From Planctomycetota bacterium (lineage in GTDB: Bacteria > Planctomycetota > Planctomycetia > Gemmatales > Gemmataceae), in NCBI GenBank assembly GCA_016873095.1, contig VGYC01000065.1, forward strand, positions 1-34,079: a stretch of 34,079 bases of DNA, given 5' to 3'. Shown here one piece after another: positions 5,784-34,079 of this stretch. Under the pieces are notes generated by a model that ran no database searches, was not told the origin of the DNA, and was given only the letters and a program-made list of their open reading frames with translations. How positions within the stretch are numbered: the stretch's first letter is position 1; the number at the start of each line of letters is the position of its first letter. A program made the position numbers and the translations under genes.

Positions 5784-8237
5784 TCACGCCGCGTGCTTCC
5801 AGGCGGGACTGGCTTGCTTGGGGCCGGGGTGTTTTCGCCAGGTCTTGCGGCGGGGGGCCGACTCATCCGTGCTCCAGAAGAGCATCGCGAAGGCCGGCAC
5901 GAGGAAGGGGCGGACGAGGAAGGTGTCGATGAGCACGCCAAAGGCGAGGGCGAAGCCGATCTGCATGAGCGTGTTCAGGCCGGCCAGCATGAGGGTGGCG
6001 AAGGTGCCGGCCATGATGAGGCCGCACGAAGTGATGGCGCCGCCGGTCCGGGCCAGGGCCCGCCGCATGCCCTCCACCATGCCGTAACGCTTGCGCTCCT
6101 GGATCGCTCGCGTTACCAGCAGAATGTTGTAATCCTCGCCTACGGCCACCAGGATCGTGAACAGGAAGAATGGCACGCGCCAGTCCACGTGCGGCAGCGG
6201 GGCGCCCGCCCAGAAGTAGCCGCACAGCACCGTGGCGCCGAGTGCCGCGAAATAGCTCAGCATCACCGTCACCAGGAGATAGCCGGCAATGGCGAGCTTT
6301 TTCACCAGGATCAGCAGGATGACAAAGATGGCGGCGATGACCCGACTGTTGACACGGAAACGGTCGCCTTCGGTCAGGGCTTCCAGGTCCTGGGAGTTGG
6401 CGGTGACGCCGAAGCATTCGGACTGCGGCGCTTCGGGGAGCAGCGTCGAGCGCGGCAGTTCCTTGTCCAGCCAGGTCCTGATCGTCCGCAGCGTTTCGCC
6501 GCTCTGCCTGGTGAATGGATCGGACTTCAGCACGACATCGATGCGCGTGACGAACCGGCCGTCCTTGATGGCCGGGCTGCTCACCTCTGGCTCCGCTTCC
6601 TCGGCGTCGCCGGTGCTCGGCTGGTCGGCGATCTGAGCAACGTAATGTTGCCGGGCCTTGTCGCGCAGACTCTCCAGGTAGCTCTCGATGCTCGGCTGCA
6701 AGTAGACGAGGAGTCGATGGAAGAAACCGTCGCCGTTCGGATCGGGAGTCAAGTCCGGAAAAGGAGCGCCCATGGGTTGCGTGAAGCTGCGGACCTCGGC
6801 GACATTGTCGAGCAGACCGAAGCCACGACTGAGATGATCGACCTCGAGCCGGCCTTCGCGGCTGTTCCAGGCGGTCCTGGAGACCAGCAAGACGGTGACC
6901 GGCCCGATCTCGCCGGCAGTGTAGTGGCGCTTGATCGCCGCCAGGCCCTTCAGGCTGTCGCACTCGCTGGACAGCTCGCTGGTGGCGCAGTAGTTGGGCT
7001 GGACGCGCAGGCCGATGATTGCCAGCGGCACCAGGATGGCTATGGCCACGAGCCAGACGATGACGGGCCGGGCGGCGACGCGGTGGCTGACCCAGTCCCA
7101 GAAGCCGAGACGCTGGATCCGCAACTGCCGCTGCAGTCGATGCCGGGACGGTCCGGGCATGCCCACGGGCCAGAAGGCGACCCGTCCCAGCAGGCGCAAC
7201 AGAGCCGGGGTGAGCGTGAGCGACGCCAGCAGCGCGACACCGAGGCTGAGGGCAATGGCGGGACCGGCGTAACGGACCTTGGCAAACTCCGCGAGTCCCA
7301 TCAGGCCGAGGCCGACCATGACAGTGGCCGCGCTCGCCGCCAGCGCCTCGCCGACGCCGCCGACACTCGCCGCCAGCGCCTCGATGCCCTGCTTGCCCGC
7401 TTCCAGCTCTTCGCGATAGCGGCTGATGAGGAACAAGCAATAGTCCGTCCCCGCTCCATAGAGGATCACGATGGCAAAGATCTTGCTGATGTTGACAAGG
7501 TGCACTCCCGGCAGAAGCGTCAGCAGGGCGAGTACGTTGAGCGCGACCCAGACGGAGAACGCAATGGTGACCAGCGGAATCAACGCCAGCAGCGGCGCCC
7601 GGTAGACGAGCAACAGGATGCCGACAACGAGAACGATGGTGGCGATGGTGGTATTGTCGAGGCTGGTGGCGCAGGTTCGCGTCAGGTCGCGGCCGACGCC
7701 GGCGGCCCCGGTCGAGTAGACCTTCGGCGCGTTGCGTCCGGCCGTCTGCACGCGTTTGATCACGGCCTCGCGAGCCCGATCCACGCTATCCGCCGTGGCC
7801 AGCGCCAGGTATGGCGTGCTCAGCGCCAGCTTCACGAGCGTGCACTTGCGATCGTAGCTGAGAAGCCGGTTGCCGACGAGGCCGTCGCTGTAGCTATCCA
7901 CCTTGCCGAGCTTTAGCTCAGGCGCGTCCTGGCGAAGCTTGTCCAGGTCCTTGACCATGGCATCGACTAGTGCGAGATCCGCCTCGGAGAGCGGCGCCTC
8001 TTCGCGCTCGACGACAAAGACCAGGTTGCTGGCCATCACGTCCTGCGGAAACGCCTGTTCCATCAGATGATAGGCGCGGACGCTGGTGAATCGCTCGGGA
8101 ATGAAGCGGACGTCATCGTCCTGGGTCTGCGTGTCCCAGCGCGGCGCGATCGCGGCCAGGCCGGCGCCGCCCAGCACCCAGAGGAGGCAGACTATCCAGG
8201 GATGTTTGGCCGTCATCCGACCCAGTTCGGCAAACAT
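5784..8237 (-). CDS. MMPL/RND-superfamily exporter
   Basis: An 817-residue inner-membrane transporter with the two-fold repeat of RND proteins: an N-terminal span (about 12-31), a large outside loop, a cluster of spans (about 198-350), a second span (about 392-411), a second loop and a final cluster. The proton-relay Asp-Tyr pairs of the MMPL family are present in both halves (GTDY, Asp265-Tyr266; GEDYN, Asp702-Tyr703). These proteins export lipids, hopanoids or other hydrophobic compounds with proton motive force. The final 30 residues are polar and basic. It lies 224 bp downstream of the metallophosphoesterase gene on the same strand, so it may be a separate transcription unit. The substrate cannot be told; a link to the nearby adaptor proteins is possible but unproven. 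Confidence 0.9.
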   Translation of the reverse strand: MFAELGRMTAKHPWIVCLLWVLGGAGLAAIAPRWDTQTQDDDVRFIPERFTSVRAYHLMEQAFPQDVMASNLVFVVEREEAPLSEADLALVDAMVKDLDKLRQDAPELKLGKVDSYSDGLVGNRLLSYDRKCTLVKLALSTPYLALATADSVDRAREAVIKRVQTAGRNAPKVYSTGAAGVGRDLTRTCATSLDNTTIATIVLVVGILLLVYRAPLLALIPLVTIAFSVWVALNVLALLTLLPGVHLVNISKIFAIVILYGAGTDYCLFLISRYREELEAGKQGIEALAASVGGVGEALAASAATVMVGLGLMGLAEFAKVRYAGPAIALSLGVALLASLTLTPALLRLLGRVAFWPVGMPGPSRHRLQRQLRIQRLGFWDWVSHRVAARPVIVWLVAIAILVPLAIIGLRVQPNYCATSELSSECDSLKGLAAIKRHYTAGEIGPVTVLLVSRTAWNSREGRLEVDHLSRGFGLLDNVAEVRSFTQPMGAPFPDLTPDPNGDGFFHRLLVYLQPSIESYLESLRDKARQHYVAQIADQPSTGDAEEAEPEVSSPAIKDGRFVTRIDVVLKSDPFTRQSGETLRTIRTWLDKELPRSTLLPEAPQSECFGVTANSQDLEALTEGDRFRVNSRVIAAIFVILLILVKKLAIAGYLLVTVMLSYFAALGATVLCGYFWAGAPLPHVDWRVPFFLFTILVAVGEDYNILLVTRAIQERKRYGMVEGMRRALARTGGAITSCGLIMAGTFATLMLAGLNTLMQIGFALAFGVLIDTFLVRPFLVPAFAMLFWSTDESAPRRKTWRKHPGPKQASPAWKHAA

Positions 8238-8460: not shown

Positions 8461-9240
8461 TCAATTGTGTCCGCGGCGCCGTTCTTTCGAGGGCAACACT
8501 TCCAGGCAGGTCGTCCACCAGCCGGTGCGGATCGTCTCGATGAATTCGTCCGGCAGTCGCTCCGCTGCCATCTCGTGGGCCAGCCGGTCATGATCGTATG
8601 CCACTGGAACGAACTCGACGCTTACATCGGTGTCAACGGACAGGATGGCATACCACACATTGGTCGTGCCATCGTTTTCCGGCCGGCCGAGCACGCCGAC
8701 ATTGACGAAGTGCTTGCCGTCGAAATGCCGCTGCCACTTGATGCCGGTGTGCGTGGCCAGGATGATGTCGGCTTCATGGACTTCGGCAAGGTGCCTCAAG
8801 AAATGGCTCGATGTTGTCGAATCCCAGAGGAATTCGTTCATGCGCCGCGGGCTACCATGGCACATGAGCGCGCGGCGGCCGGCCACCGTCAGACGCCGTT
8901 CGAGCGGCAACTCGCGCAGCCAGGCGCGATTGTCCCGGCTGGTGCCGGCCAGGGTATAGGCGTAGCTGATGCGTGCGAAATAATTGTCGCGCGGATCCGT
9001 GTAGCCGCACTGGCAGTCCGGTAACTCATGGCCAATGGAATTGTCGTAGTTCCCCTGGATGCAACGCACGCCGTGTTCTCTGAGGAGCGGAAAAACGCGA
9101 TTCGGCTGCGGGCCGAAGGCGCCGACATCGCCAAGGCAATAGACGTCGCCGATGCCGCGTAACTGCACGTCGGCCAGCGCCGCTTGCAAGGCGAGGTAAT
9201 TGCTGTAGATGCCGCCGAAGACGGCGATACGCTCGGCCAT
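8461..9240 (-). CDS. Metallophosphoesterase-fold protein with degenerate metal motifs
   Basis: A 259-residue protein of the calcineurin-like/YfcE-like phosphoesterase fold. The ATG at 9240 has AGGAG just upstream and lies 2 bp after the radical SAM stop, so the two are one translational unit. Motif II (CLGDVGAFGP, Asp38), motif III (GNYDNSIG, Asn64-Tyr-Asp66) and the later His (CHGSP, His128) are present. Motif I, normally D-x-H-G-N, reads GGIYSN, so the Asp and His metal ligands are Gly10 and Tyr12. The last motif, normally GHTH, reads THTG and lacks its second His. A CQCGYTDPRDN insert adds two cysteines. It may bind one metal or none and act as a binding protein, or have a non-standard site. 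Confidence 0.85.
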   Translation of the reverse strand: MAERIAVFGGIYSNYLALQAALADVQLRGIGDVYCLGDVGAFGPQPNRVFPLLREHGVRCIQGNYDNSIGHELPDCQCGYTDPRDNYFARISYAYTLAGTSRDNRAWLRELPLERRLTVAGRRALMCHGSPRRMNEFLWDSTTSSHFLRHLAEVHEADIILATHTGIKWQRHFDGKHFVNVGVLGRPENDGTTNVWYAILSVDTDVSVEFVPVAYDHDRLAHEMAAERLPDEFIETIRTGWWTTCLEVLPSKERRRGHN

Positions 9241-9242
9241 GC

Positions 9243-10148
9243 TCACGAGTCTCCTGTGGTCGGGATGTTGGCACACAGTGTGCCATGCTGATGACACGTG
9301 TAACAGGCGCGAAAGCGCAAGCGAAATGGGCGCAAGCTATCCGCCAGCGTGTCTCCCATTCGTGCTTCGCCGGCTTCAACCAGAATGGGACAGACGAAAA
9401 CGCCGCGATCGGTGACGATGCGCGCGTGGCTGCACAGCAGCAGCCGCTCGTCGAAGCCGGCCATCATCTCCGGCGTGACGCGCTCATGGTCCTGGTAACC
9501 GCGCTGCCGGTCGGCCTCGGCGCCAATTCGCAGCGTGGGCAGAATCTTGATGCGCGGCTTCCGGTAGCCGTTTGTCTTCATGAGATTCACGAAGCCTGCG
9601 AAGAGCCGCGCCGCGTCGTCGTCGCACGTTTGCGTCACGGTCAGGATGGGCAGGAAACCGTGGTCCAAAAGGTGCCGGACGCCGGCCAGGATGCGAGCGA
9701 AGGTGCCGGCGCCGCGGATGGCGTCGTTTTCCGCCGCCGTGAAGCCGTCCATCGACACGCGGAATTCGAGGCTGTAGCGGGACGCATCCTCGGCCGCACG
9801 CAGGCGGCGCAGCCAGTCTTCCTTGAAGACGGTACCGTTGGTGAGCACGGTGGCCGGGCCGTAGCGCAGCGTCAGTTCCAGGATGGCGGTCATGTCGCGA
9901 TTCAGGAAGGGCTCGCCGCCGGTGAAGTAATACTCCTTCACGCCGAGCCCGACCGAGGCCGCGAGATGTCGGCGAACCGTCTCCAGGTCGAGGAAACCGA
10001 ACGTGTGATTGCGCGGGCTGCAACTGATGAAGCAGTGGCTGCACTCCAGATTGCACACCGTGCCGCCGACCTGGAACCAGAGATCGTCGAGATGGTCCAG
10101 CGCCACCTGCGGCGCGGCGGAATCGAGGATGGGCAGCGGAATCGTCAT
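9243..10148 (-). CDS. Radical SAM protein with C-terminal cysteine cluster
   Basis: A 301-residue radical SAM enzyme. The CxxxCxxC motif binding the [4Fe-4S] cluster is CNLECSHC (Cys32, Cys36, Cys39), and the SAM-binding GGEP motif is at 77-80 (YYFTGGEPFLNRD). The C-terminal third has Cys239, Cys253, Cys282, Cys285 and Cys292, which suggests a SPASM/twitch-like auxiliary cluster as in peptide-modifying radical SAM enzymes. The ATG at 10148 lies 4 bp after the stop of the PqqD-M50-HlyD gene, and its stop is 2 bp before the phosphoesterase start, so all three are one operon. The PqqD-like domain in the upstream protein is what such enzymes often use for substrate peptide binding. The substrate is unknown. 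Confidence 0.9.
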   Translation of the reverse strand: MTIPLPILDSAAPQVALDHLDDLWFQVGGTVCNLECSHCFISCSPRNHTFGFLDLETVRRHLAASVGLGVKEYYFTGGEPFLNRDMTAILELTLRYGPATVLTNGTVFKEDWLRRLRAAEDASRYSLEFRVSMDGFTAAENDAIRGAGTFARILAGVRHLLDHGFLPILTVTQTCDDDAARLFAGFVNLMKTNGYRKPRIKILPTLRIGAEADRQRGYQDHERVTPEMMAGFDERLLLCSHARIVTDRGVFVCPILVEAGEARMGDTLADSLRPFRLRFRACYTCHQHGTLCANIPTTGDS

Positions 10149-10152
10149 GCGG

Positions 10153-12387
10153 CTACATCAGGCCCAGATCGAACGTCGATGACAGCGCTCGCCACACCCA
10201 CCAGGCTCCAGTGCGGTATTCGTTGTGAATCTTTACCTGGGCGAGCACGCCGGGGTAGATGGCGGCGTCCAGTCCCTCGGGCAAGAAGTCGATGCCGACG
10301 AGGTAGACTTGGGATTGCGGGGCGTACTGTCCGGCCGAGGAACCGGGCTTGACCGCGAGTGGGCCGCCGCCCTTGTTGGTGAGCGCGACCGGCACGTCCC
10401 TGGCTTCGGAGACGGGCCAGAAACTGACCTTGCCTTGCCAGGTCATGGTGTCACGGCCAATGACGCGGATGCTTACCGGCGGATCGTTCTTCTTGTTTTC
10501 CTTCACCAACTCGTACTCATCGGGGGAAAGCGGGACCAAAATGCGCAGCGACCTGGGGTCTCCGACGCTGCAGAACGCCCTGGCCTGGTCCTTGTCCCAG
10601 TACTTGCCAAGCTCGTCCGTCAGCGGCAAGCCCATGACGACTCCCTTCCGCGGCGCATACAGCACGAGGCGTCGGCGCGACTCACCCAGTACCTCCAGCT
10701 GTCGCCGTGCTTCCTCGCGCTCTTCCCAGGCGCGCTTGCGGTTGCTCTGAACCTGTAACCGCTCCTTGGGATCGCGCGTGTCCAGCAATTGCTTGTCGTA
10801 GGCCAGCAGCAGCTTGTTCTTGATGCTGAATTGCGTGCGGCTGTCGGCTTCCTTGTTATCCAGTTCCGGACTGCGAAACTCGGCGAGCACCGTTCCCTTG
10901 TTGACCTCCTGACCTTCCTTGACCTTGATCTTGTCGAGAATGCCGGGGACTTCGAGGTGCACCTGAACGATGTCGTCCGGTTTGATCTGCACGAGTCCCG
11001 TCTGGCGGACACGGCTGACGGGCAGCGGCAGGAAGAAAAAGCCCGCCAGGATGAGGGCCAGCACCCCGGCACTGATGCTGACGCGGATCGATTTCATGTC
11101 GGGCACCCTCCCACGCTTGTGTAAGTTCTTGCCCAGCCTGTACAGCGGCCAGCCGATCATCGACCCCGCTGCCATGACGGCCAGCATGTTGCTGATGACC
11201 TCGAGCTTGTAAGGCTTCAAGAACGTGGCCATGAACTTGAGAATGACGAACGTGATGACCCAGCGATAGATGTAACTGGTCACCGCGTAGGTGACGAACA
11301 GGATGCGCCGCCACAGTTCCATGTACGGCTCGGGCTGCACTTCGATGCCCAGGCAGTGGTCCATCACCAGCCGCTGGATATAGCGATTGGCGCGATCGCG
11401 CAGGTTGGGAATCTCCAGCCAGTCGGCAAGGACGTAGTAACCGTCGTAGCGCATCAGCGGATTGCCATTGAACATCACGGTGCTGACACTGCACACGACC
11501 ATGAGGCACAGCGCCATGTAATTGATGAAGGGATGGCTGGACGAATTCCACCAGACAAAGGTGGCAATGGCGGCAATCATCAGCTCGACGTATATGCCGG
11601 CGCCGCTGATGATGATGCGTTTCCACTTGCTGGGCAGCATCCAGGCATCGGAAACGTTGCAATACATTGCCGGCGAGAAGCACAGGAACAGGAAGCCCAT
11701 CTCGTGGACCTCGCCGCCGAACGCCTTGCAACTGAGTCCGTGTCCGAACTCGTGTATGACCTTGACGACCCCCAGCGCCGCCCACATGTAAAAGATGGTC
11801 TTGAAGCTGAAGAATTCGTGGAACGACGGCCAGCGGTCGCGGAACGTCTGGAAATGCGTCAACACCAGCAACAGCGCCCCCGACATCACACCGATGCTCA
11901 GCAGCAAGAACCAGATGGTGAACATCCAGCGCGTGTAGGGCAGCATCTTCTCCAGCAGGCGCTCGGGATCAAAGATCGGAATCTTGATGTAGAGGATGTT
12001 GGTGAGCGCCTGGATGAGTTCCTGGCGCTTGCGTTTCTTGCGGCCATCCCACAGTTGCTTGCCGGCCGCCGGCGACTCATTCTGTGCCAGACCCGCCTTG
12101 AGCAGTTGCTGCCCGAACTGCTCGAGGTCCTCAAGCGTGAGACGATCGGGACGAAAGCGCTTCTCGAACGCTTTCTGGGCGTCGTCCAGCGTGTGCTTGC
12201 CGTCCATGAGCCCGAGCAGGAAGTTCTCGTGCTCCTTGAAGCGGTAATAGCGCATGCTGACGGGATCTTTGACGACGTAGTAGGTCCGGCCCTCGTATCG
12301 CTGCGGCTTGACGTTGAGATCGGCGCGCAGTCGCAATCGCAACTGCTTGCGGCGTTCAAGGTCGGAAGCCGGGGTGTCTTTTTTCAC
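10153..12387 (-). CDS. PqqD-like / M50 site-2-type protease / HlyD adaptor fusion protein
   Basis: A 744-residue three-part membrane protein. Residues about 30-100 look like a PqqD/RRE-type winged helix (YRFKEHENFLLGLMDGKHTL). Residues about 150-420 are a polytopic M50 metalloprotease core with the zinc motif HEFGH (His212, Glu213, His216) and the later FNGNPLMRYDGYY stretch, which supplies the third ligand (Asp315) in this family. After a span at about 436-455, residues 460-744 form a HlyD-like adaptor with a lipoyl-type half-motif (VPGILDKIKVKEGQEVNKGT), a coiled coil and a beta-barrel part. The start is GTG at 12387, next to a heptamer repeat array and without a clear Shine-Dalgarno site; the next Met is too far inside. 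It may handle export or cleavage of a peptide. Confidence 0.88.
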   Translation of the reverse strand: MKKDTPASDLERRKQLRLRLRADLNVKPQRYEGRTYYVVKDPVSMRYYRFKEHENFLLGLMDGKHTLDDAQKAFEKRFRPDRLTLEDLEQFGQQLLKAGLAQNESPAAGKQLWDGRKKRKRQELIQALTNILYIKIPIFDPERLLEKMLPYTRWMFTIWFLLLSIGVMSGALLLVLTHFQTFRDRWPSFHEFFSFKTIFYMWAALGVVKVIHEFGHGLSCKAFGGEVHEMGFLFLCFSPAMYCNVSDAWMLPSKWKRIIISGAGIYVELMIAAIATFVWWNSSSHPFINYMALCLMVVCSVSTVMFNGNPLMRYDGYYVLADWLEIPNLRDRANRYIQRLVMDHCLGIEVQPEPYMELWRRILFVTYAVTSYIYRWVITFVILKFMATFLKPYKLEVISNMLAVMAAGSMIGWPLYRLGKNLHKRGRVPDMKSIRVSISAGVLALILAGFFFLPLPVSRVRQTGLVQIKPDDIVQVHLEVPGILDKIKVKEGQEVNKGTVLAEFRSPELDNKEADSRTQFSIKNKLLLAYDKQLLDTRDPKERLQVQSNRKRAWEEREEARRQLEVLGESRRRLVLYAPRKGVVMGLPLTDELGKYWDKDQARAFCSVGDPRSLRILVPLSPDEYELVKENKKNDPPVSIRVIGRDTMTWQGKVSFWPVSEARDVPVALTNKGGGPLAVKPGSSAGQYAPQSQVYLVGIDFLPEGLDAAIYPGVLAQVKIHNEYRTGAWWVWRALSSTFDLGLM

Positions 12388-12456
12388 AGTTTTCAGTGTT
12401 CAGTGTTCAGTGTTCAGTGTTCAGTGTTCAGTTTTCAGTTTTCAGTTTTCAGTGTG
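12387..12456. repeat. Heptanucleotide tandem array (ten units)
   Basis: Ten exact 7-bp units run without a gap: one CAGTTTT, five CAGTGTT, three CAGTTTT and a last CAGTGTG. On the minus strand, the sense strand of the flanking genes, this reads as repeated AACACTG and AAAACTG. The array ends at the GTG start codon of the PqqD-M50-HlyD gene and occupies its whole ribosome-binding region. Heptameric repeats of this kind are known from cyanobacteria and other bacteria. Their copy number often varies, so phase or length variation affecting translation is possible. Confidence 0.95.
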
Positions 12457-12491
12457 GACCTATTTCTGCCAACTAAACACTGCAATCTTTT

Positions 12492-14570
12492 TCAATGTTC
12501 CACGACGATGGTGACTGGCCGTCCCGAGAGGAAGCGGCCGTCACGGTTATCGACATCGACGCCGACGCGGATCTGCCGGGTACCCGAATCGACGGCGCCG
12601 CCGACCATTGTCAGACGTGCCAGCACGCGATGCTGGCTGACCTCCAGCATGTTCGGCACCGGCCACAGATACACGTGACCGTCCTTGCAGCCGGAGACGG
12701 CGTACGAGCCCGCGTCCTTGCCGGACAGGCCGGCGTCGGGAAAGAACGCCGCGCATGTGACCGGCGCTTTCTCACGGGTGACGTACTGGCGAAGCTCGAA
12801 GCCGCGCTGGTTGGCGCCCGGGGTCCGCCAGAGAATCAGCCGGCCTTCCGGGGCGCCGCCCGTCAACATCAGCGAGCCGTCGGGCGAGAACAACGCGAGG
12901 GTCACGAAGGGAGTGGTGCCGTCAGGGTTTTCGAGGATGCCCGTCTGGATGCCGTCCTGGGTCGAGAGGATTTGCAGGCGGCGGCCCTGGTCAAAGACCA
13001 TGCGGCGGCCGTCGCGATCCACGCCCAGCTGTCCCACTGTGCCGGAGCGGTCCGGGATCGGATCGATGGCCTGCTTCGCGCCCTTCTCATGCAGATCGTA
13101 AACGCGCAGCGTGTTGTCCGTGCTGGCGGCGACCAGCTTCGTCTCCGGCGTGAAGCTCAGCGCGGTGATCGTGCCGTCCGGCGAGATGCCAGGCGACAAG
13201 GTGTAAAGCGGCTCACGCGATTCCGTCTTCCAGACCTGAATGCGGTGATCGGCGCCGCCGCTTGCGAAGAACGCGCCGACGGGGCCAAAGGCAAGCGCCG
13301 TGACGCCGTCGGCGTGCCCGGCCTTGAGCTTGTCGGCAAAGCTGACATCATAGCGGCGCTTCTTGATGTCGAGCTTGTCGAGTTCCCAGAGATAGATGTC
13401 GCCATTGGCGCAGCCGGTGAGGAGCAGATCCATCGGCGCGCCGGGAGGTGTGCACGCGACGGTCCGCACGGCATCGGGATGGTACAGCACCCAGCGCGGC
13501 GAGGATTCGGCCGGATCCCAGACGCATACGGTCTTGTCTTCGCTGGCGGATATGACGCGCGGCTTGCGCGGGTCGCGGGTGACGGCAACAGCGGTCACTT
13601 CCTTGCGATGCCCCATCAGGACACGCGGGGCGACTTCAGTGGTCGGCTCCAGAAACACCGGCATGCCAACGTGTAGCCGGCTGCGGTTCGGCACGTCCAC
13701 CATGCCCTCGGCACGCAGCCGTTCCGTCGAATAGATCTGCACGATCGGTTCGAGCTTCTTGACCGCTTCTTCTCCCTTGTGATGAATGATCTTGATGCGG
13801 CAGCGAACCGGAAGTTCGTTGCGAATGGTGTGCTCCTTCAAGTCGATCTCGGAAGCTTGCTGCTCGTGCTCGGCAACCTTGATGCCCTCCTTCTTGGTGA
13901 TCTTGTCCTGAAACGACTTGTTGCGGGACAGGAGCTTTTCACGGTATTCTTCTTCGCGGATCAAGCGATTGCCACCAATGATGGTGTTGTAAGCCTTCTC
14001 TGCCGAGATCGCTCGCAGATCGGCTTCCTTGTAGAGTTCTTCGGCGCCCTTGTATTCCGCGATTGCAGCATTGTACTTGGCCCTGCGCAGGGCAACCTCA
14101 TTGAGGATTCGCGCGGGGTCGAGCTTTGCGATCACCTGTTTTGGGCGGACCGTGGCTTCTTCTTCCCACGGCCGATAGATGACGGCCAGATCGGCCAGTC
14201 CCTGGATCACGTTGCGTTGCAAGAAGGGCTCGCCGATCAGGCATGCCACGCCCGCAGCGGCCGCCGTCCCTTCCGGAATCTCGTCGCCGATGCACAGCAC
14301 CTTGGCATCCACCTGGGCGGCGACATCCACTTGCTCGGGCGTGGTGGTGTGTCCGTGCACGACGACCGCGTTCATGGGACTGCCGCTGCCGACATGCCAG
14401 TCCACGCGCGGAGTCTGTCGCGGATAAAGCAGTTCGCCGAGGGCCTCCTCGGTTTCCGGTTCGGTGTTGCTTTTCCTGTTCGGCGTGTCGGTCTTCCACC
14501 AGTCGAAGTAATAAACGACGACAGCGAACAAGGCCACGCCGAGCACCACCGTCAGCAAGAAGCGTCCCAT
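12492..14570 (-). CDS. HlyD-like membrane-fusion protein with an inserted seven-bladed WD40 propeller
   Basis: A 692-residue protein. An N-terminal anchor span (residues 4-24) is followed by an adaptor region with coiled coil (about 150-250) and lipoyl/barrel strands (about 250-312, HHKGEEAVKKLEPIVQIY). Residues 315-637 contain seven WD40-type repeats, including GHRKEVTAVAV...VCVWD, GHADGVTALAF...IQVWK and the last one ending in GHVYLWP, which is enough for a closed propeller. After it, residues 640-692 (ARLTMVGGAVDSGTRQIRVG, then GRFLSGRPVTIVV) resume the adaptor's terminal barrel. The propeller is thus inserted, not appended, and lies outside the inner membrane by inference. The ATG at 14570 follows GAGGGAT. 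It lies between two other HlyD-type genes on the same strand. Confidence 0.88.
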   Translation of the reverse strand: MGRFLLTVVLGVALFAVVVYYFDWWKTDTPNRKSNTEPETEEALGELLYPRQTPRVDWHVGSGSPMNAVVVHGHTTTPEQVDVAAQVDAKVLCIGDEIPEGTAAAAGVACLIGEPFLQRNVIQGLADLAVIYRPWEEEATVRPKQVIAKLDPARILNEVALRRAKYNAAIAEYKGAEELYKEADLRAISAEKAYNTIIGGNRLIREEEYREKLLSRNKSFQDKITKKEGIKVAEHEQQASEIDLKEHTIRNELPVRCRIKIIHHKGEEAVKKLEPIVQIYSTERLRAEGMVDVPNRSRLHVGMPVFLEPTTEVAPRVLMGHRKEVTAVAVTRDPRKPRVISASEDKTVCVWDPAESSPRWVLYHPDAVRTVACTPPGAPMDLLLTGCANGDIYLWELDKLDIKKRRYDVSFADKLKAGHADGVTALAFGPVGAFFASGGADHRIQVWKTESREPLYTLSPGISPDGTITALSFTPETKLVAASTDNTLRVYDLHEKGAKQAIDPIPDRSGTVGQLGVDRDGRRMVFDQGRRLQILSTQDGIQTGILENPDGTTPFVTLALFSPDGSLMLTGGAPEGRLILWRTPGANQRGFELRQYVTREKAPVTCAAFFPDAGLSGKDAGSYAVSGCKDGHVYLWPVPNMLEVSQHRVLARLTMVGGAVDSGTRQIRVGVDVDNRDGRFLSGRPVTIVVEH

Positions 14571-14585
14571 GATAATCCCTCGGCT

Positions 14586-14633
14586 GTTTACGTTTCGCGC
14601 TCGCGCGGCGCCGCTCGAGCGCGAAACGTAAAC
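14586..14633. terminator. Intra-operon hairpin, 18-bp perfect inverted repeat
   Basis: GTTTACGTTTCGCGCTCG at 14586-14603 is perfectly inverted at 14616-14633 around a 12-nt loop. It starts at the stop codon of the GAF-HlyD gene and ends 15 bp before the WD40-adaptor start. There is no T-run after it on the minus strand, so it may act as an attenuator, an mRNA-processing or stability element, or a repeat-element relic, more than as a classic terminator. A related sequence is found at 21783-21868. Confidence 0.6.
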
Positions 14634-16747
14634 TAAAAGAACCAGACCACCTTCTCGTAAAGGAACTCCCAGACGCCGTAGAAGAGCGAGTAGCCCATGG
14701 CGTGGTTGCCGCAGCGAATGCGGGTATGGACCTCGATGTTCGAGGTTTGCAGGGCAGCCAGCGGGATGCGCGATTCTTCGGGGATGTCGTTGCCGGAAAT
14801 GCGCGCCCAGGCCATGACCATCGGCTCGGATTCGCCGCCCGGATCGTCCTTCTGCTCCCTGTTTTGCTTGGCCCTGGCTTCCTTGGCGATCTTGCTGCGA
14901 TGCAGCTTGGCCTTGAAGGTGGACGTCGGCATGTTGGTGAGCAGCAGGTCCACGTCCAGTTCATCGTTGACCGCGGCATGGCCGTACGCCGCCAGCACCT
15001 GGCCGATGTGCTTCTGAGGAATCTTCAGCTCGATCTCCCACTCGGAGAGCTTCGGATTCTTCATGTCCACCTTGCCGATCTGCAAGAGGGCCTCGTTCGG
15101 CTTGATTGGTCGATTCAGGAGGGTATCGCGAAAGTCGCCGGTGAGGATGATGCCGCTCATCGGAGCCCGCACCCAGAATTCGCCCGGCCGTTGCAAGATG
15201 GCATTGGTCCGCTGCTGCAAGTCCTCCAGCTGGCGCGAATAGGCGTCGCGGCGAATCTTGGCCTCGTTGATCTCGTGCGCCAGCGTGGACTTGTCGCCTT
15301 CCTTGAGCTGGCTGCTCAGCTTGATGGTGTTGTCGGCCGTGTCGATCTTGAGTTTCATGTCGGTGATCTTGTCATCCAGGTCCATGTCGAACAGGCGCAG
15401 GAGTTGCTGGTCCTTGACGACCTGGCTGCCTGATTTCAGCGTGCCCTTGATTTCCCGGACCGTACCGGAATTGGAAGAGTACAGGTAGCTGCGGTCGCGC
15501 GGCAGGAGCTGGCCGGAGGCCTCCATCTTGAGCGGATAAGGCACCAGCACCAAGACGCCGATCAGCAGCACCACGGCCACGCCGATCAGTGTGAGGATGG
15601 CCCGGGCCTTGCCTCCCAGGCCGTCTTGCAACTTGGCCAGCGGAAACCACAGGAAGCGCATCGGAATGCGGCGATACTCGGAAGCGTTGTACAGCGCCGC
15701 GGTCGCGTGTTTGCCGACGACCTCCAGCCGGGCCACCATCTGCTCCGGGCCGGCAGGAGGATCGAAGCATTCCAGAAGTAGAACGGAGCGCGGCGGCTTC
15801 TTGGTGTTGGTCTCGCGCTCGTCGCGCAGCGGCAGCACCACCAGGAGCTTGCTGTTGCTTTCCGCGAGGTATTCGTCGAGTGCCTTCAACACGTTCGGAG
15901 GCAGGGTGTCGTCCTTGATGCCGCTATAGACGAGCTTCTCACCCCAGGCCAGCACGCTGTCGAACAAGGTGCGCATGAGGCGAACGAGGTTGGAACGCTT
16001 CTCGACGACATCGGCGCCGCTCACGGCCAGCACGGCGCATCTGGGGCCGTCGCGCACGCCGACGGTGACACGGTCGGCCTCGGCGAGACGCCGGCCTTCG
16101 TTGGCGATCAAGTACGCGACCTCGGTCGGATTGAGACTGCCGTGGATCTGCTTGGCAAATGACTCGAGCTGCGTCCAGACTTGCTGCTGTCCGGTGATCT
16201 GTCGCAACTGATGCTTGACGGTGTAGCCCGAGGCCAGCGCAGCCATGCGGACCAGGAACTGCAAGAAGCCGCGCTGCGCATCGGTACCGCGATTGGCCTC
16301 TTGCCAGATCTCGACCAGGCCGGCCACCTGGTTTTCGATAAGGATGGGCGCCAGCAAGATCACGTAATCAGTGGGATTGCCCGGCGGCACCGAGTTGCCG
16401 CTCGGTTCGCCCATGCTGCTCTGCGGCCAGACGATTCCCGGCTGGGCTTTCATGGCCGCTTGACGGAGCAGTTCGTCATGCATCTGCCTGCCGACGTCGG
16501 AATTGTCAATTCCGACCTGCCGCATGTTGATTTGGAATTGCAGCTGGAGATTGCCCTGGGCCGTCCGCAGCCAGACGGCGCCTGCCGGCGCGGCAAGGGC
16601 CGCCACGACTCGTTGCAGGAACTCGTTGTAATAGTCTGGCGGCGGCAGCTCCATTTCCGACAGTCGGGCGATCTCCTCGGCCAGGCGATTGATCTGACGT
16701 CGAATCTGCTCTACCTGCTCGAGGTTTGGTTCGGGGCCGACGCTCAC
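14633..16747 (-). CDS. Tandem GAF-domain HlyD-type adaptor protein
   Basis: A 704-residue protein. After a short coiled coil (residues 7-32), two GAF-like regions (about 38-175 and 190-355) form a cytoplasmic sensor half. A single span (383-403, AILTLIGVAVVLLIGVLVLV) leads to a periplasmic HlyD-like half (about 408-704) with a half lipoyl motif (SSNSGTVREIKGTLKSGSQV), a coiled-coil hairpin and barrel strands. GAF domains bind small ligands or mediate dimer contacts; here they could gate the adaptor. The GTG at 16747 is the start, with GAGGA eight bases upstream. It is the first gene of the adaptor cluster, and a TATAAT box lies on this strand about 50 bp upstream of the start. A GAF sensor joined to a transport adaptor is unusual outside planctomycetes. 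Confidence 0.87.
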   Translation of the reverse strand: MSVGPEPNLEQVEQIRRQINRLAEEIARLSEMELPPPDYYNEFLQRVVAALAAPAGAVWLRTAQGNLQLQFQINMRQVGIDNSDVGRQMHDELLRQAAMKAQPGIVWPQSSMGEPSGNSVPPGNPTDYVILLAPILIENQVAGLVEIWQEANRGTDAQRGFLQFLVRMAALASGYTVKHQLRQITGQQQVWTQLESFAKQIHGSLNPTEVAYLIANEGRRLAEADRVTVGVRDGPRCAVLAVSGADVVEKRSNLVRLMRTLFDSVLAWGEKLVYSGIKDDTLPPNVLKALDEYLAESNSKLLVVLPLRDERETNTKKPPRSVLLLECFDPPAGPEQMVARLEVVGKHATAALYNASEYRRIPMRFLWFPLAKLQDGLGGKARAILTLIGVAVVLLIGVLVLVPYPLKMEASGQLLPRDRSYLYSSNSGTVREIKGTLKSGSQVVKDQQLLRLFDMDLDDKITDMKLKIDTADNTIKLSSQLKEGDKSTLAHEINEAKIRRDAYSRQLEDLQQRTNAILQRPGEFWVRAPMSGIILTGDFRDTLLNRPIKPNEALLQIGKVDMKNPKLSEWEIELKIPQKHIGQVLAAYGHAAVNDELDVDLLLTNMPTSTFKAKLHRSKIAKEARAKQNREQKDDPGGESEPMVMAWARISGNDIPEESRIPLAALQTSNIEVHTRIRCGNHAMGYSLFYGVWEFLYEKVVWFF

Positions 16748-16971: not shown

Positions 16972-17316
16972 TCAGTTGCCTTGCTCATAGCCCAGGATGG
17001 CGTGCATGAGGTCGGCGGGATCGACCTCGCATTCCGGCAGGGGCCAGCCGAAGCGTTCGGTGGCAGCAAGCTGGCACGCCGCGCCGCGGTCGGACTTCTG
17101 ACTCCAGAGCACGACAAACTTGACGATCGAGCGGGCCCGGCGACACAGGCGTCCCAGCTCGCGGCGCGTGTTCTCTTCGGCGGGATTCTTGTCGTGGATC
17201 AGTTCCGCCCGATCGACGAGCCAATCGACCAGCATGCGTGCCTCGGCATCGCCCAGGCCGCGTGTCAGCCCCTCGTCCTCGAAGATCGGATTCAGCAGTG
17301 CTCGCGGCGCCAGCAT
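16972..17316 (-). CDS. Small protein of unknown function
   Basis: A 114-residue soluble protein, mostly helical, with the stretches GLGDAEARMLVDWLVDRAELI and LGRLCRRARSIVKFVVLWSQ. It has three cysteines but no metal-binding spacing, no signal peptide and no membrane span. The ATG at 17316 is the first in the frame; the ribosome binding site is weak. It stands alone on minus between the adaptor cluster and a divergent membrane-protein gene. The codon use looks like that of its neighbours. I do not recognise the family. Confidence 0.65.
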   Translation of the reverse strand: MLAPRALLNPIFEDEGLTRGLGDAEARMLVDWLVDRAELIHDKNPAEENTRRELGRLCRRARSIVKFVVLWSQKSDRGAACQLAATERFGWPLPECEVDPADLMHAILGYEQGN

Positions 17317-21951: not shown

Positions 21952-22770
21952 ATGGAAATGTACGAGCAGATTCAAGAAGCGAAGCGGGCCGTCGAGTCGC
22001 GCTGGCAGGGCAAGCCACGCGTTGGCATCATCCTGGGCACCGGACTGGGCGGCCTGACCGAGGATATCAAGGCAGAGGCGGCGATTCCATATGAGGAGAT
22101 TCCGCACTTCCCGCGCTCGACGGTCAAGTCCCACGCCGGTCGGCTGGTGTGCGGAAGCCTTGGCGGCAAGGCCGTGATGGCGATGGAGGGACGTTTCCAC
22201 TTCTATGAAGGCTACACCCTCAAGCAGATCACCTTTCCGGTGCGCGTCATGCGTGCTCTGGGCTGCGACATGCTCATCGTCAGCAATGCCTGTGGCGGCA
22301 TGAATCCCCAGTACTCGAAGGGGGACATCATGTTTATCGAGGATCATATCAACCTGCTCGGCGACAACCCGCTCATCGGCCCGAATGACGAGCGGCTGGG
22401 CGTGCGCTTTCCCGACATGTCGCATCCCTACGATGCGAAGCTGATCGAGCTGGGCCGCCGGATTGCTCTGGAAGAAAAGATCGCCACGCAGAAGGGCGTG
22501 TTCGTGGCAGTGTCCGGCCCCTGTCTGGAGACACGGGCCGAGTATCGCTTCCTGAAGGACATCGGTGCCGACGTGGTGGGCATGTCCACAGTGCCGGAGG
22601 TCATCGTCGGCGTGCACGCCGGCATGCGCATCATGGGATTGTCGGTCGTCACTGACATGTGCCTGCCGGACGCGCTGGAACCGGCCGTTCTGGAAGAAAT
22701 CATTGCCGTCGCCAACACGGCGGAGAAGAAGCTGCGCGTGCTGGTGCGGCGGGTGGTGGCGGAGGCCTAG
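21952..22770 (+). CDS. Purine nucleoside phosphorylase (trimeric PNP family)
   Basis: A 272-residue enzyme that splits purine nucleosides with phosphate to give the free base and ribose-1-phosphate. The ATG at 21952 is preceded by GGAGGG (21939-21944); another in-frame ATG lies at 21937 but overlaps that site. Family motifs are [11 protein letters not shown] (25-35), SHAGRL (60-65, phosphate-binding His), GRFHFYEGY (80-88), NACGGMNP (112-119), [10 protein letters not shown] (189-198, the base-binding Glu) and [11 protein letters not shown] (210-220). At the residue that is Asn243 in human PNP this protein has Asp (VVTDM, Asp235), as in methylthioadenosine phosphorylases, so specificity for 6-oxopurines is not assured. 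It would supply the base pool for salvage. Confidence 0.93.
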
Positions 22771-22874
22771 GCCGCCGTTACGACATGCAGCGGGTGCTCT
22801 TCGCATCTGGCGTGGTCGGGGATCAACGCCAGGGCATGAGTGCATCGCATTGCCGTATCGATAAGATAGAAGGC

Positions 22875-23915
<1,041 letters not shown>

Positions 23916-24966
23916 ACCGCTGCCAGCTCCGCCCGCGCCGCCGCGCGCCATGGGCGCGCTGCGCAAGTACGGCAAGATCCTGCGCATCGCGCTGGTCGAG
24001 CGGCTCGTCTATCGAGCTGATTTCTTCGTCAGTACGATCTTTCGCTTCTTGCCGCTGGTCACGACCGTGCTGCTCTGGGAAGCGGTTTTCGACAGTTCCG
24101 GTCGGTCGCGGCTGGGCGGTTACTCGCGCAACGAGATGGTCGCGTACCTGCTGCTCGTGCAGATCAGCCGGATGTTCTCGAGCATGCCGGGGCTGGCGGC
24201 CGGCATCTCGCGCGACATCCGCGACGGCACGCTGAAGAAGTATCTGCTGCAACCCATCGACATGATCGGATACCTGCTGTCGTACCGCATCGCCCACAAG
24301 ATGGCGTACATCGCGACAACGGCCTTGCCCTACGCGATCCTGTTCTTTTTCTGCCGCGACTTCTTCGACGGCCTGCCCGACGCGGGCACGCTGGCTCTCT
24401 ACTTTCTCGCGCTGGTGATGGGCTTTCTACTGGGCTTCTTCTTCGAGATGATGATCGGCATGGTCGGGTTCTGGTTTCTGGAAGTGACCTCGTTCCTGTA
24501 TGTGGTCAACACGCTGAACTTCTTCGTGTCCGGGCACATGTTTCCTCTGGAACTGTTGCCGCCGGCATGGGTGACAGTGCTGAAGTCGCTGCCGTTCCAG
24601 TACCTGGCATACTTTCCGGCAGCAGTGTTTCTCGGCAAGGTCGAGGGACCCGAGTTATACTGGGGCCTTGCCGGTCAGCTTGCCTGGATCATCGCCTTCG
24701 TCGTCCTGGCACGCGTGCTCTATCGCGTGGGGCTGGCGCGCTACAGTGCCTACGGAGGATAATGGCCTCATCGGGGCAACCGATCGGTACTTCAGGCGTG
24801 CAACCTGCGCAATCCAGTGATTCCAGAGCCGCACGCGTCGCGACGCGCTTCGCTCGGCTTGAGGATCGAGCCAGGCTCCACGGACCCGAATTCTCGCTTT
24901 GACTTGGCAAGGAAACTGGTGCAGGATCTTCACAGGCCTGCACTGGCGGGATCCTGAGGCCTGGGC

Positions 24967-29821: not shown

Positions 29822-32800
29822 TTACAGCACCTCCACTTCCTTCTCGTTCACCAGGATTCCCGTCGGCGTCGGCACGGTTCCGGGCGTGCCCTGGAAGCCG
29901 AAGGTGACTTCGCCGCCGGCGGCGATGGTCTTGTTCCAGTCGGCGGCGCGGATGACGTAGCGCTTGCCGACATGGCTGACGATGACCGCATTCCAGATCG
30001 ACGTGATCGCGCCGTCGAAGTCGAAGGCGATGGTCCAGCCGTTGATGGCCGCCGCGCCCAGATTGCGGATAGTCATGTCGGCGACGAAGCCGGTGCTCCA
30101 GTTATCGCGGACCTTGAAGGCAACGCCGATGCCCGTCGCCGGCGCATCGTCGTCGGCGATTGACCCGGTTGCCTGCGCGATGCCGATCACTGCGTTGGTC
30201 GCGCCGCTGAGGTTCACGAAGAAGGTCTCCTTGCCCTCGACCAGCGTGTCACCCAGGATGGTGACGGCGATGGTCTGCGTCGTGGTCCCCGGCGCGAAAG
30301 CGAGTGTGCCGCTGGCGGCGAGGTAGTCGCTGCCGGCCGTGGCGGAACCGTTGGCCGTGGCGTAGCTGACCGTTACCGGACTCGTCGCCGGCCCGGAAAG
30401 TTGCACGGTGAAGACGGCCGTCTTCGTTCCGGTATTGCCTTCGGTCACCGTCACGTCGTTGATGGAGATGATCGGCACGCCGGGCGTCGAGGTCGGCGTC
30501 AGTCCGGAGAGGTGTTGCGTGCCAAACTCGTACACCGGGATGAAATCGCTGGGCGCGAGCAGGTCGCGGTTCAAGGACAGGCCCTGGAACGACCAGTCGT
30601 TGGCCGGGTTCCATGCCGACGCCGGCAAGCCGTTGCGCAGGCCGATGCGTAGCTGCGACTCCTTGGCGAACATGCCGGCGCCGGGGCCGATCACCACGCC
30701 GGCGAAGCTGACATCCACGTAGTAAATGCGCTGGGCGGCATCCCATGGCAGCAGCACGCTGAGCTTGGCGCCCTGCGAGTAGCTGGACTGGACGACCACG
30801 TCGCTGACCGTGTAACCGGCAGCGTAAACCTCGGAGAGATTCACGAAGTAACGGAAGGACAGGTCGGAGCTGAGCCGCGCCGGCCAGGCGGAGCGATTGT
30901 TGAGGACGGCGCGCACCTCGGTGAAGGTGCTGCCCTGCTGGTTGACGCTGGCCTGGACAAAGAACTCCCGATCGCGGACATCCGGCTTCGGGAAGTCGGC
31001 GAGCGGTTGCCCGCCGTACTCGAGGAACAGCCGGGCGAGAGCGCCGGTGAAGCCGGCGTTGTAGTCGAGGGCGACCTCGTTGCTGATGTAGTTGCTACGG
31101 ACGTCGTGGTAATCGTTGTCGTTGGCCGATTCGGGACCGCCGACGAGCGCGCCGTAGAGCACGTGGCGGTTGGGCGCGGCATTGGAGACGTTGCCGTCCC
31201 AGATGCCGCTGCCGCCGCGATGGTGCGGGTTCTGCGGCGGGTTGTTGCCGAAGCCGACCACGTAGCTGCGGTTGTTCGGGTTCTTGCCGAGGATGTACTC
31301 CATCTGCCCGAGCGCGAAATCGTGGTAGCGGCCGTTGTAGTCCTTCACCGTGTCAGCATAGATCAGGGCGATGAAGGCCGTCGTCGAGGCGTAGCGGAGC
31401 GAGCCCCAGTTGCTGAGGAACGCCAGCCCGCCGGGGGTGTAGGTGATGCGCGTCGCGCCGCCGTTGATGCCGACCGACCAGTAGTCGAGCCAGCGCTCGG
31501 CGTCGCTGCGATAAACCTGCTTGCCGGTGGCCTGGGCCAGCATGACGGCGGCGCCGTAGCGCTTGTCGTCCCACGAGTGCGTCCAGGTCATCGTCTGCCC
31601 GGCGAAGTGCTGGGCGTAGTAGGTCTCGGCCTTGTTGAGATAGGCGGCGTTGCCAGTGGCCTTGTAGAGCCAGATGGCGCCCCAGACGAGTTCGTCCTGG
31701 TAGCCGCTGAAGGAGTTGTAATAGCTGGCGGCGTCGGTGATGCTGTCGCTGTACTTGCCGCGGTAAGTATCGGCGAAGGAGTAGAGCTGGATGGCGTGTT
31801 GCAGAAGCTTGTCGGCGTAGGCCGTATCGGTGGCGCGGAAGACCAGCGACGCGGCGGCGAGGGCGGCGGCGGCCTCGCCGGCGAGGTCCGAGCCGGGGCG
31901 CGTGGCATCGATCTTGTACGCCGGCCGGGCCATCTGCATCACTTCGGGCGGCACCCAGGCGGCATGGTCCAGATCGCCGCGGCCAACCTGGCCCCAGAAC
32001 TCGTTGGGCGCCGTGTGCGCCTTCACGATCCAGTCGGTCCCCCACTTGATCGCTTCGAGCACGCGGTCGAGCTGCCCGCTCTGCTGATAGGCGTCGCGAT
32101 ACTGGTCGACGCCCCAGGCGAGCAACGTCATGGAGCCGGACATGGGCAGGCCGAACTTGACGTGATCGCCGGCGTCGTAGTAGCCGCCGGTGAGATCCAC
32201 ACCGACGTCGCTGCCGTCGCTCATGGCCGAGTCGCCACGCCAGTCCACGATGTAGTCATCCGGCAGATCGCCGGAACGATTAGCCTCATAGAAGAACAGC
32301 GCTTTCTGCAAGGCCTCGCCATAGTTGAACGTGGACGTTGTCGGCGCATCGTCGTTGATGATCGTGCCCTGTCCCGCGGCGACGGCGATGGTTGCACCCA
32401 CCGCCGCCGACAAGTTGACGAAGAATGTCTCGTTGCTTTCCTGCAACGTGTCTCCCTTTACCTGGATCGCAACCGTCTTTTGCGTCTCACCCGCTGCGAA
32501 CGTCAGCGTTCCGGAAGCAGCGACGTAGTCACTACCAGCGCTGGCGGTGCCGTCGGCCGTGGTGTAAGCGACGCTGACGGTGCCGGACGCGGCTTTCGAC
32601 AGGCTGACCGTGAACGTCGCCAGCGTCGTGCCGGAATTGCCTTCGGTCACGCTGGCGTTGCCGATGGAGATTGTCGGCAACGCCACGGCGACATCGTCGT
32701 TCATGATCGTACCGAGAGCCTGGACGCGCGCCAGCGTCGCTCCCACTGGATTGCTGAGCTTGAAGAGGAACGTCTCATTCGGCTCGACCGTGGTGTCGCC

Positions 32801-33805
32801 ATTGACCAGCACGCTGACGGTCCTCTGCGTCTGCCCGGCGGCAAACGTGACGGTCCCGCTGATCGCCTGGTAATCGCTGCCGGCGAGCGCCGTCTGATCG
32901 GCGGTGGCATACGCCACGCTGACGGCCTGCGTCGCCGCCTGGGACAACGTCAGCGTGAAAGTCGCGGTGGTCGTGCCGGCGTTGCCCTCGGTGACGCTGA
33001 CATCGGCCACCGTGATGGACGGCGTCGCCGGCGGCGGTGGTGGCGTGACGCCGCCGACCGGCTGGCCATTGAAGATGTGGCCGGTCGGCTTGGTGGTGAC
33101 GTTGCCGGGCGAGCCGTTGAAGCCGAACGACACCGTCGCGCCCGGCGCGATGACGGCGTTGTGTCCGCCGTCGCGGATCACGTAGTGGTTGCCTTGCCGG
33201 CTGTCGATGCGTGCGTTCCAGATCGAGTCGATGGCATGGCCGAAGTCGAACTCCAACTTCCAGCCGGAGATGCTGGCCGTCCCCGTGTTCTTGATGGAGA
33301 TGCTGCCGCCGAAGCCGGTTTTCCAGTCGCTGGTCACGGCGAAGTCGACAGCCACCGTGGACGTGGCTGCGGGCTCGGCGCCCCAGGTGAGGACATAGCT
33401 ACTCGGCGAAGTGGTCCCGCCGGCGGTGAAGCCGAAGCTGGCGCTCTTGCCGGCGTCGAGGTTGCCATTGCTGCCGTCCGCCTTGACGATGTAGCGGTCG
33501 CCGACGTGGCTGACGATCTGGGCGTTCCAGATGGAATCGATATTGGTGGCGAGGTTGAACTCGAGCCGCCAGTCGTGGATAGTCGCGCTCTGGTCGTTGA
33601 GCAGCGTGACGCCGGCCTGGTAGCCGCTGCCCCAGTTGTTGACGACGGCGAAGGTGACGGCCGGCGTGGTGTCGATGCCGGCGGCGGGGACCAGGCGATC
33701 TTCGAGGCGCTCCAGCGCCAGCGTGGCACGCTTGCGGCGCACAGGCTTGGGCTCTGATCGTTTGAGGCGAAACCAATTCGCGGACCATCGGCGCAGAGTG
33801 AGCAT
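29822..33805 (-). CDS. Secreted multimodular GH9 cellulase (CBM2-CBM2-Calx-Calx-GH9-CBM3c-Calx-CBM2)
   Basis: A 1327-residue enzyme. The ATG at 33805 follows GGAGG; the frame upstream to 33889 is not supported. Order: a basic N-terminus with LERLEDRLVPAA (31-42), CBM2 (46-141), CBM2 (151-250), a Pro-rich linker, Calx-beta (262-371), Calx-beta (378-486), GH9 (492-940), CBM3c-like (943-1095), Calx-beta (1112-1219) and CBM2 (1225-1327). GH9 residues seen are Asp544 and Asp547 (GGYYDAGDHVKFG), His861 (NPHHRGGSG) and the acid Glu910 (DVRSNYISNEVALDYNAGF). GH9-CBM3c pairs are typical of processive endoglucanases (theme B). The CBM2 modules bind crystalline cellulose. Calx-beta modules probably act as calcium-stiffened spacers. 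It is expected outside the cell or on its surface. Confidence 0.95.
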   Translation of the reverse strand: MLTLRRWSANWFRLKRSEPKPVRRKRATLALERLEDRLVPAAGIDTTPAVTFAVVNNWGSGYQAGVTLLNDQSATIHDWRLEFNLATNIDSIWNAQIVSHVGDRYIVKADGSNGNLDAGKSASFGFTAGGTTSPSSYVLTWGAEPAATSTVAVDFAVTSDWKTGFGGSISIKNTGTASISGWKLEFDFGHAIDSIWNARIDSRQGNHYVIRDGGHNAVIAPGATVSFGFNGSPGNVTTKPTGHIFNGQPVGGVTPPPPPATPSITVADVSVTEGNAGTTTATFTLTLSQAATQAVSVAYATADQTALAGSDYQAISGTVTFAAGQTQRTVSVLVNGDTTVEPNETFLFKLSNPVGATLARVQALGTIMNDDVAVALPTISIGNASVTEGNSGTTLATFTVSLSKAASGTVSVAYTTADGTASAGSDYVAASGTLTFAAGETQKTVAIQVKGDTLQESNETFFVNLSAAVGATIAVAAGQGTIINDDAPTTSTFNYGEALQKALFFYEANRSGDLPDDYIVDWRGDSAMSDGSDVGVDLTGGYYDAGDHVKFGLPMSGSMTLLAWGVDQYRDAYQQSGQLDRVLEAIKWGTDWIVKAHTAPNEFWGQVGRGDLDHAAWVPPEVMQMARPAYKIDATRPGSDLAGEAAAALAAASLVFRATDTAYADKLLQHAIQLYSFADTYRGKYSDSITDAASYYNSFSGYQDELVWGAIWLYKATGNAAYLNKAETYYAQHFAGQTMTWTHSWDDKRYGAAVMLAQATGKQVYRSDAERWLDYWSVGINGGATRITYTPGGLAFLSNWGSLRYASTTAFIALIYADTVKDYNGRYHDFALGQMEYILGKNPNNRSYVVGFGNNPPQNPHHRGGSGIWDGNVSNAAPNRHVLYGALVGGPESANDNDYHDVRSNYISNEVALDYNAGFTGALARLFLEYGGQPLADFPKPDVRDREFFVQASVNQQGSTFTEVRAVLNNRSAWPARLSSDLSFRYFVNLSEVYAAGYTVSDVVVQSSYSQGAKLSVLLPWDAAQRIYYVDVSFAGVVIGPGAGMFAKESQLRIGLRNGLPASAWNPANDWSFQGLSLNRDLLAPSDFIPVYEFGTQHLSGLTPTSTPGVPIISINDVTVTEGNTGTKTAVFTVQLSGPATSPVTVSYATANGSATAGSDYLAASGTLAFAPGTTTQTIAVTILGDTLVEGKETFFVNLSGATNAVIGIAQATGSIADDDAPATGIGVAFKVRDNWSTGFVADMTIRNLGAAAINGWTIAFDFDGAITSIWNAVIVSHVGKRYVIRAADWNKTIAAGGEVTFGFQGTPGTVPTPTGILVNEKEVEVL

Positions 33806-34079
33806 GGTGTCCTCCAGAAGACCGGACGGGAAAACCAGCCGCGGCGCGTACCGCGGACCAATACACCGTTTCCTGAGATCCTGAGACAATCAACTGGATG
33901 GGAGCCTCGCCTCGTTCCGTTACGAGCGCCAAAGCTGAATTGATTACCCCGCATGTCTTGGTACGGGGTTCAAGTGGAATCGTTGAGCCCGGTTTTGTGT
34001 GAGTCTTCGGGCGGTGCGAAACAAGCCGCTTCTCTTCCCGCGGAACAGAGAAAGGCTAGCGGGGGTCCAGGGGGCGGCA
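33806..34079. other. Upstream region of the GH9 gene
   Basis: No gene is supportable. The ribosome site CCTCC (GGAGG on minus) is at 33811-33815. A TCCTGAGA direct repeat lies at about 33869-33887 and an ACCCCG/CGGGGT stem at 33947-33970. No clear promoter pair was found on minus. Confidence 0.4.

Follow-up and report, generated by a model that had tools for sequence, protein, structure and literature searches.

The window analysed here, i.e., the whole stretch of 34,079 nucleotides from a planctomycete of the family Gemmataceae, carries five consecutive minus-strand genes, and the question raised by this locus is whether these genes form one system. A sequence-only reading had regarded them as a candidate for a single, undescribed export and modification system, in which three HlyD-type adaptors work together with a radical SAM enzyme and a phosphoesterase, possibly with a downstream MMPL exporter as pump. 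The features of the locus are as follows:

16972..17316 (-): gene X, 114 aa, no known domain, 227 bp upstream of A
14633..16747 (-): gene A, 704 aa, tandem GAF domains, one membrane helix (about residues 384-402) and a periplasmic HlyD-type adaptor (Pfam, orthologues, hydropathy)
12492..14570 (-): gene B, 692 aa, membrane-anchored HlyD-type adaptor with an inserted WD40 propeller (Pfam, model)
10153..12387 (-): gene C, 744 aa, PqqD/RRE-like domain (residues 16-108), M50 intramembrane zinc protease and HlyD-type adaptor (about 455-735) (Pfam, NCBIfam, alignments, model)
9243..10148 (-): gene D, 301 aa, radical SAM enzyme, Rv1681-like (below cut-off)
8461..9240 (-): gene E, calcineurin-like (Metallophos_2) phosphoesterase, partner of D
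5784..8237 (-): MMPL-family transporter, 223 bp downstream of E
22659-24762 (+): ABC ATPase and ABC-2 permease

All five genes from A to E were found in the proposed order. The intergenic gaps are 62 bp (A-B), 104 bp (B-C), 4 bp (C-D), and 2 bp (D-E), which confirms the tight spacing reported for the last three genes. For E, the ATG at 9240 is a better start than the GTG at 9297. The conserved small gene X had been overlooked, and the statement that no ABC ATPase is present has to be corrected in view of the ATPase encoded together with the ABC-2 permease, although this transporter lies on the opposite strand and is not a conserved neighbor of the block. The region between B and C (12388-12491) contains a short tandem repeat of the CTGAACA type.

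A, B, and C belong together. They occur in that order in 38 of 40 C-centred loci across the class Planctomycetia, and the same order is found in the named genomes of Singulisphaera acidiphila, Paludisphaera soli, and Pan216. This co-linearity bears out the earlier view that the three adaptors form a unit, which fits an export apparatus. C itself was matched in 45 of the 48 good genomes among the relatives, and its function is therefore likely to be fundamental to these bacteria with their unusual envelopes. In loci from other orders, a small gene, which we take to be DUF3467-like, lies beside the block in 15 of 34 cases, mostly after C (e.g. L138, L156, L173). The window's genome (8.36 Mb in 548 contigs) contains a second A-B-C copy on contig C46 (L096 4040-9023), with 35%, 30%, and 46% identity and a WD40 domain in B. 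The C gene of this second copy stops just past its HELGH motif and looks decayed or misassembled.

The enzyme genes D and E behave differently. D matched Radical_SAM (4.5e-17) and contains a CxxxCxxC motif and further cysteines, and E matched Metallophos_2 (2.3e-10). The D-E pair was absent beside C in all 40 class loci searched, where no E match and only one generic radical SAM match (27% identity) were found. With a criterion of at least 55% identity, D orthologues were detected in 22 of 99 genomes, including that of the window, and E was present in all 22. Of the 21 relatives, 15 have both genes side by side and six have them on separate contigs, and in the 13 genomes that were searched for both C and D-E, the pair always lies away from C. 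The sequence-only reading had itself named adaptor homologues without D and E as the finding that would turn the shared system into a chance operon, and this is the arrangement that the relatives show. The five genes are two separate units, namely A-B-C and the enzyme pair D-E, which does not belong to the A-B-C module. The most straightforward interpretation is that the pair was relocated next to C in the window's lineage; gaps of 2-4 bp that look like a tight operon in a single genome can join unrelated units.

A functional link between D and E is supported by contig C398 of the window's genome (L207 238-2097), on which both are fused in the order E-D in one 620-aa frame. In six D-E loci (L191, L195, L199, L192, L205, L206), a FAD oxidoreductase gene directly precedes D, and in three of these a gene for FTR (formylmethanofuran:H4MPT formyltransferase) lies ahead of the oxidoreductase gene. 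FTR is an enzyme of the C1 pathway, and a role of D-E related to C1 metabolism is possible. The mere presence of FTR is uninformative in this respect because it is nearly universal in the class (96 of 99 genomes), and only the neighborhood in a few genomes gives a hint. In the window's genome, FTR and the oxidoreductase are encoded together on contig C27, without D-E.

For the A-B-C block, there is a published counterpart. Kamneva, Poudel and Ward (2015; PMC4452313) described a short "secondary" SecA_DEAD ATPase that goes together with three HlyD-type proteins. They suggested that the SecA-like protein acts as the ATPase and that the M50 protein, whose M50 similarity they termed weak, may be a pore, pointed out that the genes of the module may be unlinked, and left role and mechanism open. 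The members of this module can be recognized here: A is the GAF protein with HlyD/biotin_lipoyl domains, C the M50 protein with HlyD domain and membrane helices, B the third HlyD/biotin_lipoyl protein, now with a WD40 insert, and a SecA_DEAD protein without SecA_SW is encoded on contig C145. A SecA_DEAD gene inside the locus, which is common but not defining as unlinked cases have been published, was not found in the window's genome. Going by these features of the sequences, A-B-C is a variant of the SecA_DEAD-linked module of Kamneva et al. (2015), and the system cannot be termed undescribed. It differs from the published locus by the unlinked SecA gene, the WD40 insert in B, and the additional gene X. 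Relative to the main text of that paper, in which the terms for a PqqD/RRE-like domain and a WD40 insert are absent, the following aspects are new: the RRE-like fold, M50 motifs that are conserved almost throughout, the insertion of the WD40 propeller and the groups in which it occurs, gene X, a SecA gene apart from the block in Gemmatales, and the statistical test of co-occurrence. Beyond the 2015 paper, we found no experimental work on any module member in the open-licence literature.

The window's genome encodes a canonical SecA and, on contig C145 and thus unlinked to A-B-C, a short SecA that contains SecA_DEAD, PP_bind, and P-loop and lacks SecA_SW. In a phylogenetic tree, the short SecAs, whether linked or not, were all split from canonical SecA with full support, and the Gemmatales copies formed one clade. 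The short SecA gene lies directly upstream of A in several Pirellulaceae/Planctomycetaceae loci, and A-C pairs from other classes of the phylum have a short SecA gene as neighbor in 9 of 20 loci, with OEP (TolC-type) genes as neighbors in at least two. Within the window, no TolC-type gene was seen beside A-B-C. Among genomes from outside the class, 26 of 41 with C encode a second SecA_DEAD protein, as compared to 9 of 189 without C (p ~1e-16, with shared ancestry not fully corrected). When counted by family, a second SecA is found in 15 of 22 families with C and in 7 of 61 without C (p ~1e-6, ancestry only partly corrected). The remaining 15 of the 41 C-positive genomes have no second SecA at the threshold used, and one of these (G127/L220) has a degenerate copy. 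The short SecA encoded elsewhere in the genome is a strong candidate for the energy source of A-B-C.

Gene C is the most complex component. In Pfam, it matched HlyD_D23 (1.3e-12), Peptidase_M50 (1.1e-7), and weakly PqqD (0.003). The M50 motifs are HEFGH at position 212 and NGNPLMRYDG at position 307; among 139 C proteins, 135 contain HExGH, and nearly all share the second motif (NxNP with DG). All of the best relatives of C come from planctomycetes, with those from Gemmataceae being nearest. The AlphaFold2 model of C has a mean pLDDT of 84 and supports a PqqD/RRE-like fold at residues 16-108. This region could be superimposed on TbiB1, which has been solved with its leader peptide, with a Z-score of 11.5 and 2.7 A over 87 residues at 13% identity. 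The model thus supports that C opens with a fold like that of RiPP leader-peptide readers (RRE). C differs from RiPP recognition element proteins such as TbiB1 (lasso peptide B1) in that its predicted RRE-like domain sits in a membrane protein. Residues 432-735 matched MacA/AcrA-type adaptors in the model-based structure search, and the HlyD part is structurally closest to adaptors of the MacA/AcrA/MexA type. As adaptor matches dominate the list of this search, its results bear on the HlyD and RRE-like parts. In the model, we read about seven membrane helices, with which the RRE-like domain would be cytosolic and the HlyD domain periplasmic.

The PqqD-like and M50 arrangement of C is shared with the M50 proteases of the YydFGHIJ/LiaK epipeptide and daptide systems. 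C scored far under the curated cut-offs of the respective models, with 186 of 300 bits (1e-54) for the daptide M50 model NF041824 and 52 of 225 bits (7e-14) for the YydH/LiaK model NF058609, and it differs from these proteases by the fused HlyD adaptor. A conserved radical SAM partner or precursor gene for C was not found in the class loci and relatives.

In the window copy of A, Pfam detected GAF, while the HlyD domain remained below the threshold. Among orthologues of A, GAF was detected in 15 of 16 and HlyD_3 in 13 of 16. Hydropathy analysis showed a single strong membrane helix near residue 390. B has an N-terminal membrane anchor, and its HlyD domain is split by the WD40 propeller at about residues 311-637. 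The AlphaFold2 model of B has a mean pLDDT of 86, and the propeller matches known WD40 structures with a Z-score of 35. In other orders, B is a plain HlyD protein of about 300 aa, and the WD40 insert occurs in Gemmatales and the Pan216 group. In Rhodopirellula baltica BR-MGV (L171 2515-5877), A and B are found in one open frame of 1121 aa with GAF, lipoyl, and HlyD domains, which is possibly a natural fusion.

From the domain anatomy, the linkage, the intact protease motifs, the presence of the short SecA, and the co-occurrence of C with a second SecA, which are all directly established, we infer a six-step working and a polypeptide substrate. We consider it probable, at roughly two in three, that A, B, and C are the envelope parts of a SecA_DEAD-linked, type I-like secretion module that works in this manner. 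The cytosolic PqqD/RRE-like domain of C would bind a signal segment of the substrate (step 1), and the short SecA ATPase encoded elsewhere in the genome would push the chain (step 2). The M50 membrane domain of C would cleave the chain within the membrane and possibly lines the route of the chain as well (step 3). Together, the HlyD domains of the three proteins would make up a mixed adaptor in the periplasm, and this adaptor would dock on an outer-membrane channel of the TolC type (step 4). The tandem GAF domains of A may sense a small molecule in the cytosol and gate the machine accordingly (step 5), and the periplasmic WD40 propeller of B could serve as an added docking platform in Gemmatales and the Pan216 group (step 6). 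The RRE-like domain, the preserved protease site, and the co-occurrence with SecA make the module published in 2015 accessible to concrete hypotheses.

The resemblance to type I secretion (HlyB-HlyD-TolC) consists in the HlyD-type periplasmic adaptors, the TolC-type genes near some relatives, and an RTX protein at one locus. Differences are that there are three distinct adaptors here, that a protease and GAF domains are fused to them, and that the candidate motor is SecA-like. A HlyB-type ABC exporter linked to A-B-C was not found, and no ABC gene is conserved beside the block in the 40 loci. A more far-reaching and tentative view, to which we give less than even odds, is that the module represents a distinct kind of trans-envelope secretion that is near-universal in Planctomycetia, with a SecA-type motor in place of the ABC exporter, RRE-like selection, M50 processing, and a hetero-adaptor of three HlyD proteins leading to TolC.

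It would also be conceivable that A-B-C exports nothing and is a complex for regulated intramembrane proteolysis or envelope sensing, with GAF and WD40 domains as sensors, the M50 domain as site-2 protease, and the HlyD domains as scaffolds. The nearly always intact zinc motifs, the tandem GAF domains, the near-universal occurrence in the class, and a window without a linked pump gene would all agree with such a function. As three HlyD domains are present, however, and short SecA and TolC-type genes are associated in other loci, we regard this alternative as unlikely. Even less convincing is a function of the adaptors in small-molecule or lipid efflux together with an unlinked RND, MMPL, or ABC pump, in which case the SecA association would be indirect. 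The structural proximity of the HlyD part of C to MacA/AcrA/MexA-type adaptors and the MMPL and ABC-2 genes within the window are in line with it, but the co-occurrence partner is SecA, and neither of the two transporter genes is conserved beside A-B-C. MMPL matches near C were in fact zero across the 40 loci, so that neither the MMPL exporter, which had been suggested as the pump, nor the ABC-2 transporter was retained for this role. Least probable of all is a RiPP-like system of all five genes, in which D modifies a peptide that is cut by C and exported by the adaptors and MMPL, since the short C-D and D-E gaps that suggest one transcript, the below-cut-off matches of C to the daptide and YydH/LiaK models, and the RRE-like fold are outweighed by the fact that D, always accompanied by E, lies away from C in the relatives, that a precursor gene was not found, and that MMPL is not near C elsewhere.

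With respect to substrates of the proposed secretion module, very long open reading frames near C were seen in 14 of 20 loci as compared to 9 of 20 control stretches, which is no significant enrichment, and several of the long frames had the base composition of antisense shadows. Giant proteins were therefore dismissed as substrate candidates. At one locus of a relative (L220 1-5637), a 1879-aa protein with many RTX repeats adjoins A of an A-C pair; RTX proteins are typical type I substrates. The SecA-like neighbor of this A-C pair has lost its ATPase motifs.

Gene X is present in 38 of 44 Gemmatales genomes and in none of the 15 other genomes of the class, and it is located upstream of A in many loci. 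No other conserved small gene was found near A. We considered the product of gene X as a precursor peptide and discarded this idea in view of its length, its restriction to Gemmatales, the lack of a known domain, and the absence of a membrane segment in the hydropathy analysis. Elsewhere in the window (29822-33889, minus strand), a 1355-aa multidomain cellulase with CBM2 repeats, GH9, CBM3, Calx-beta repeats, and a CBM49-like domain is encoded, which is probably a large secreted protein.
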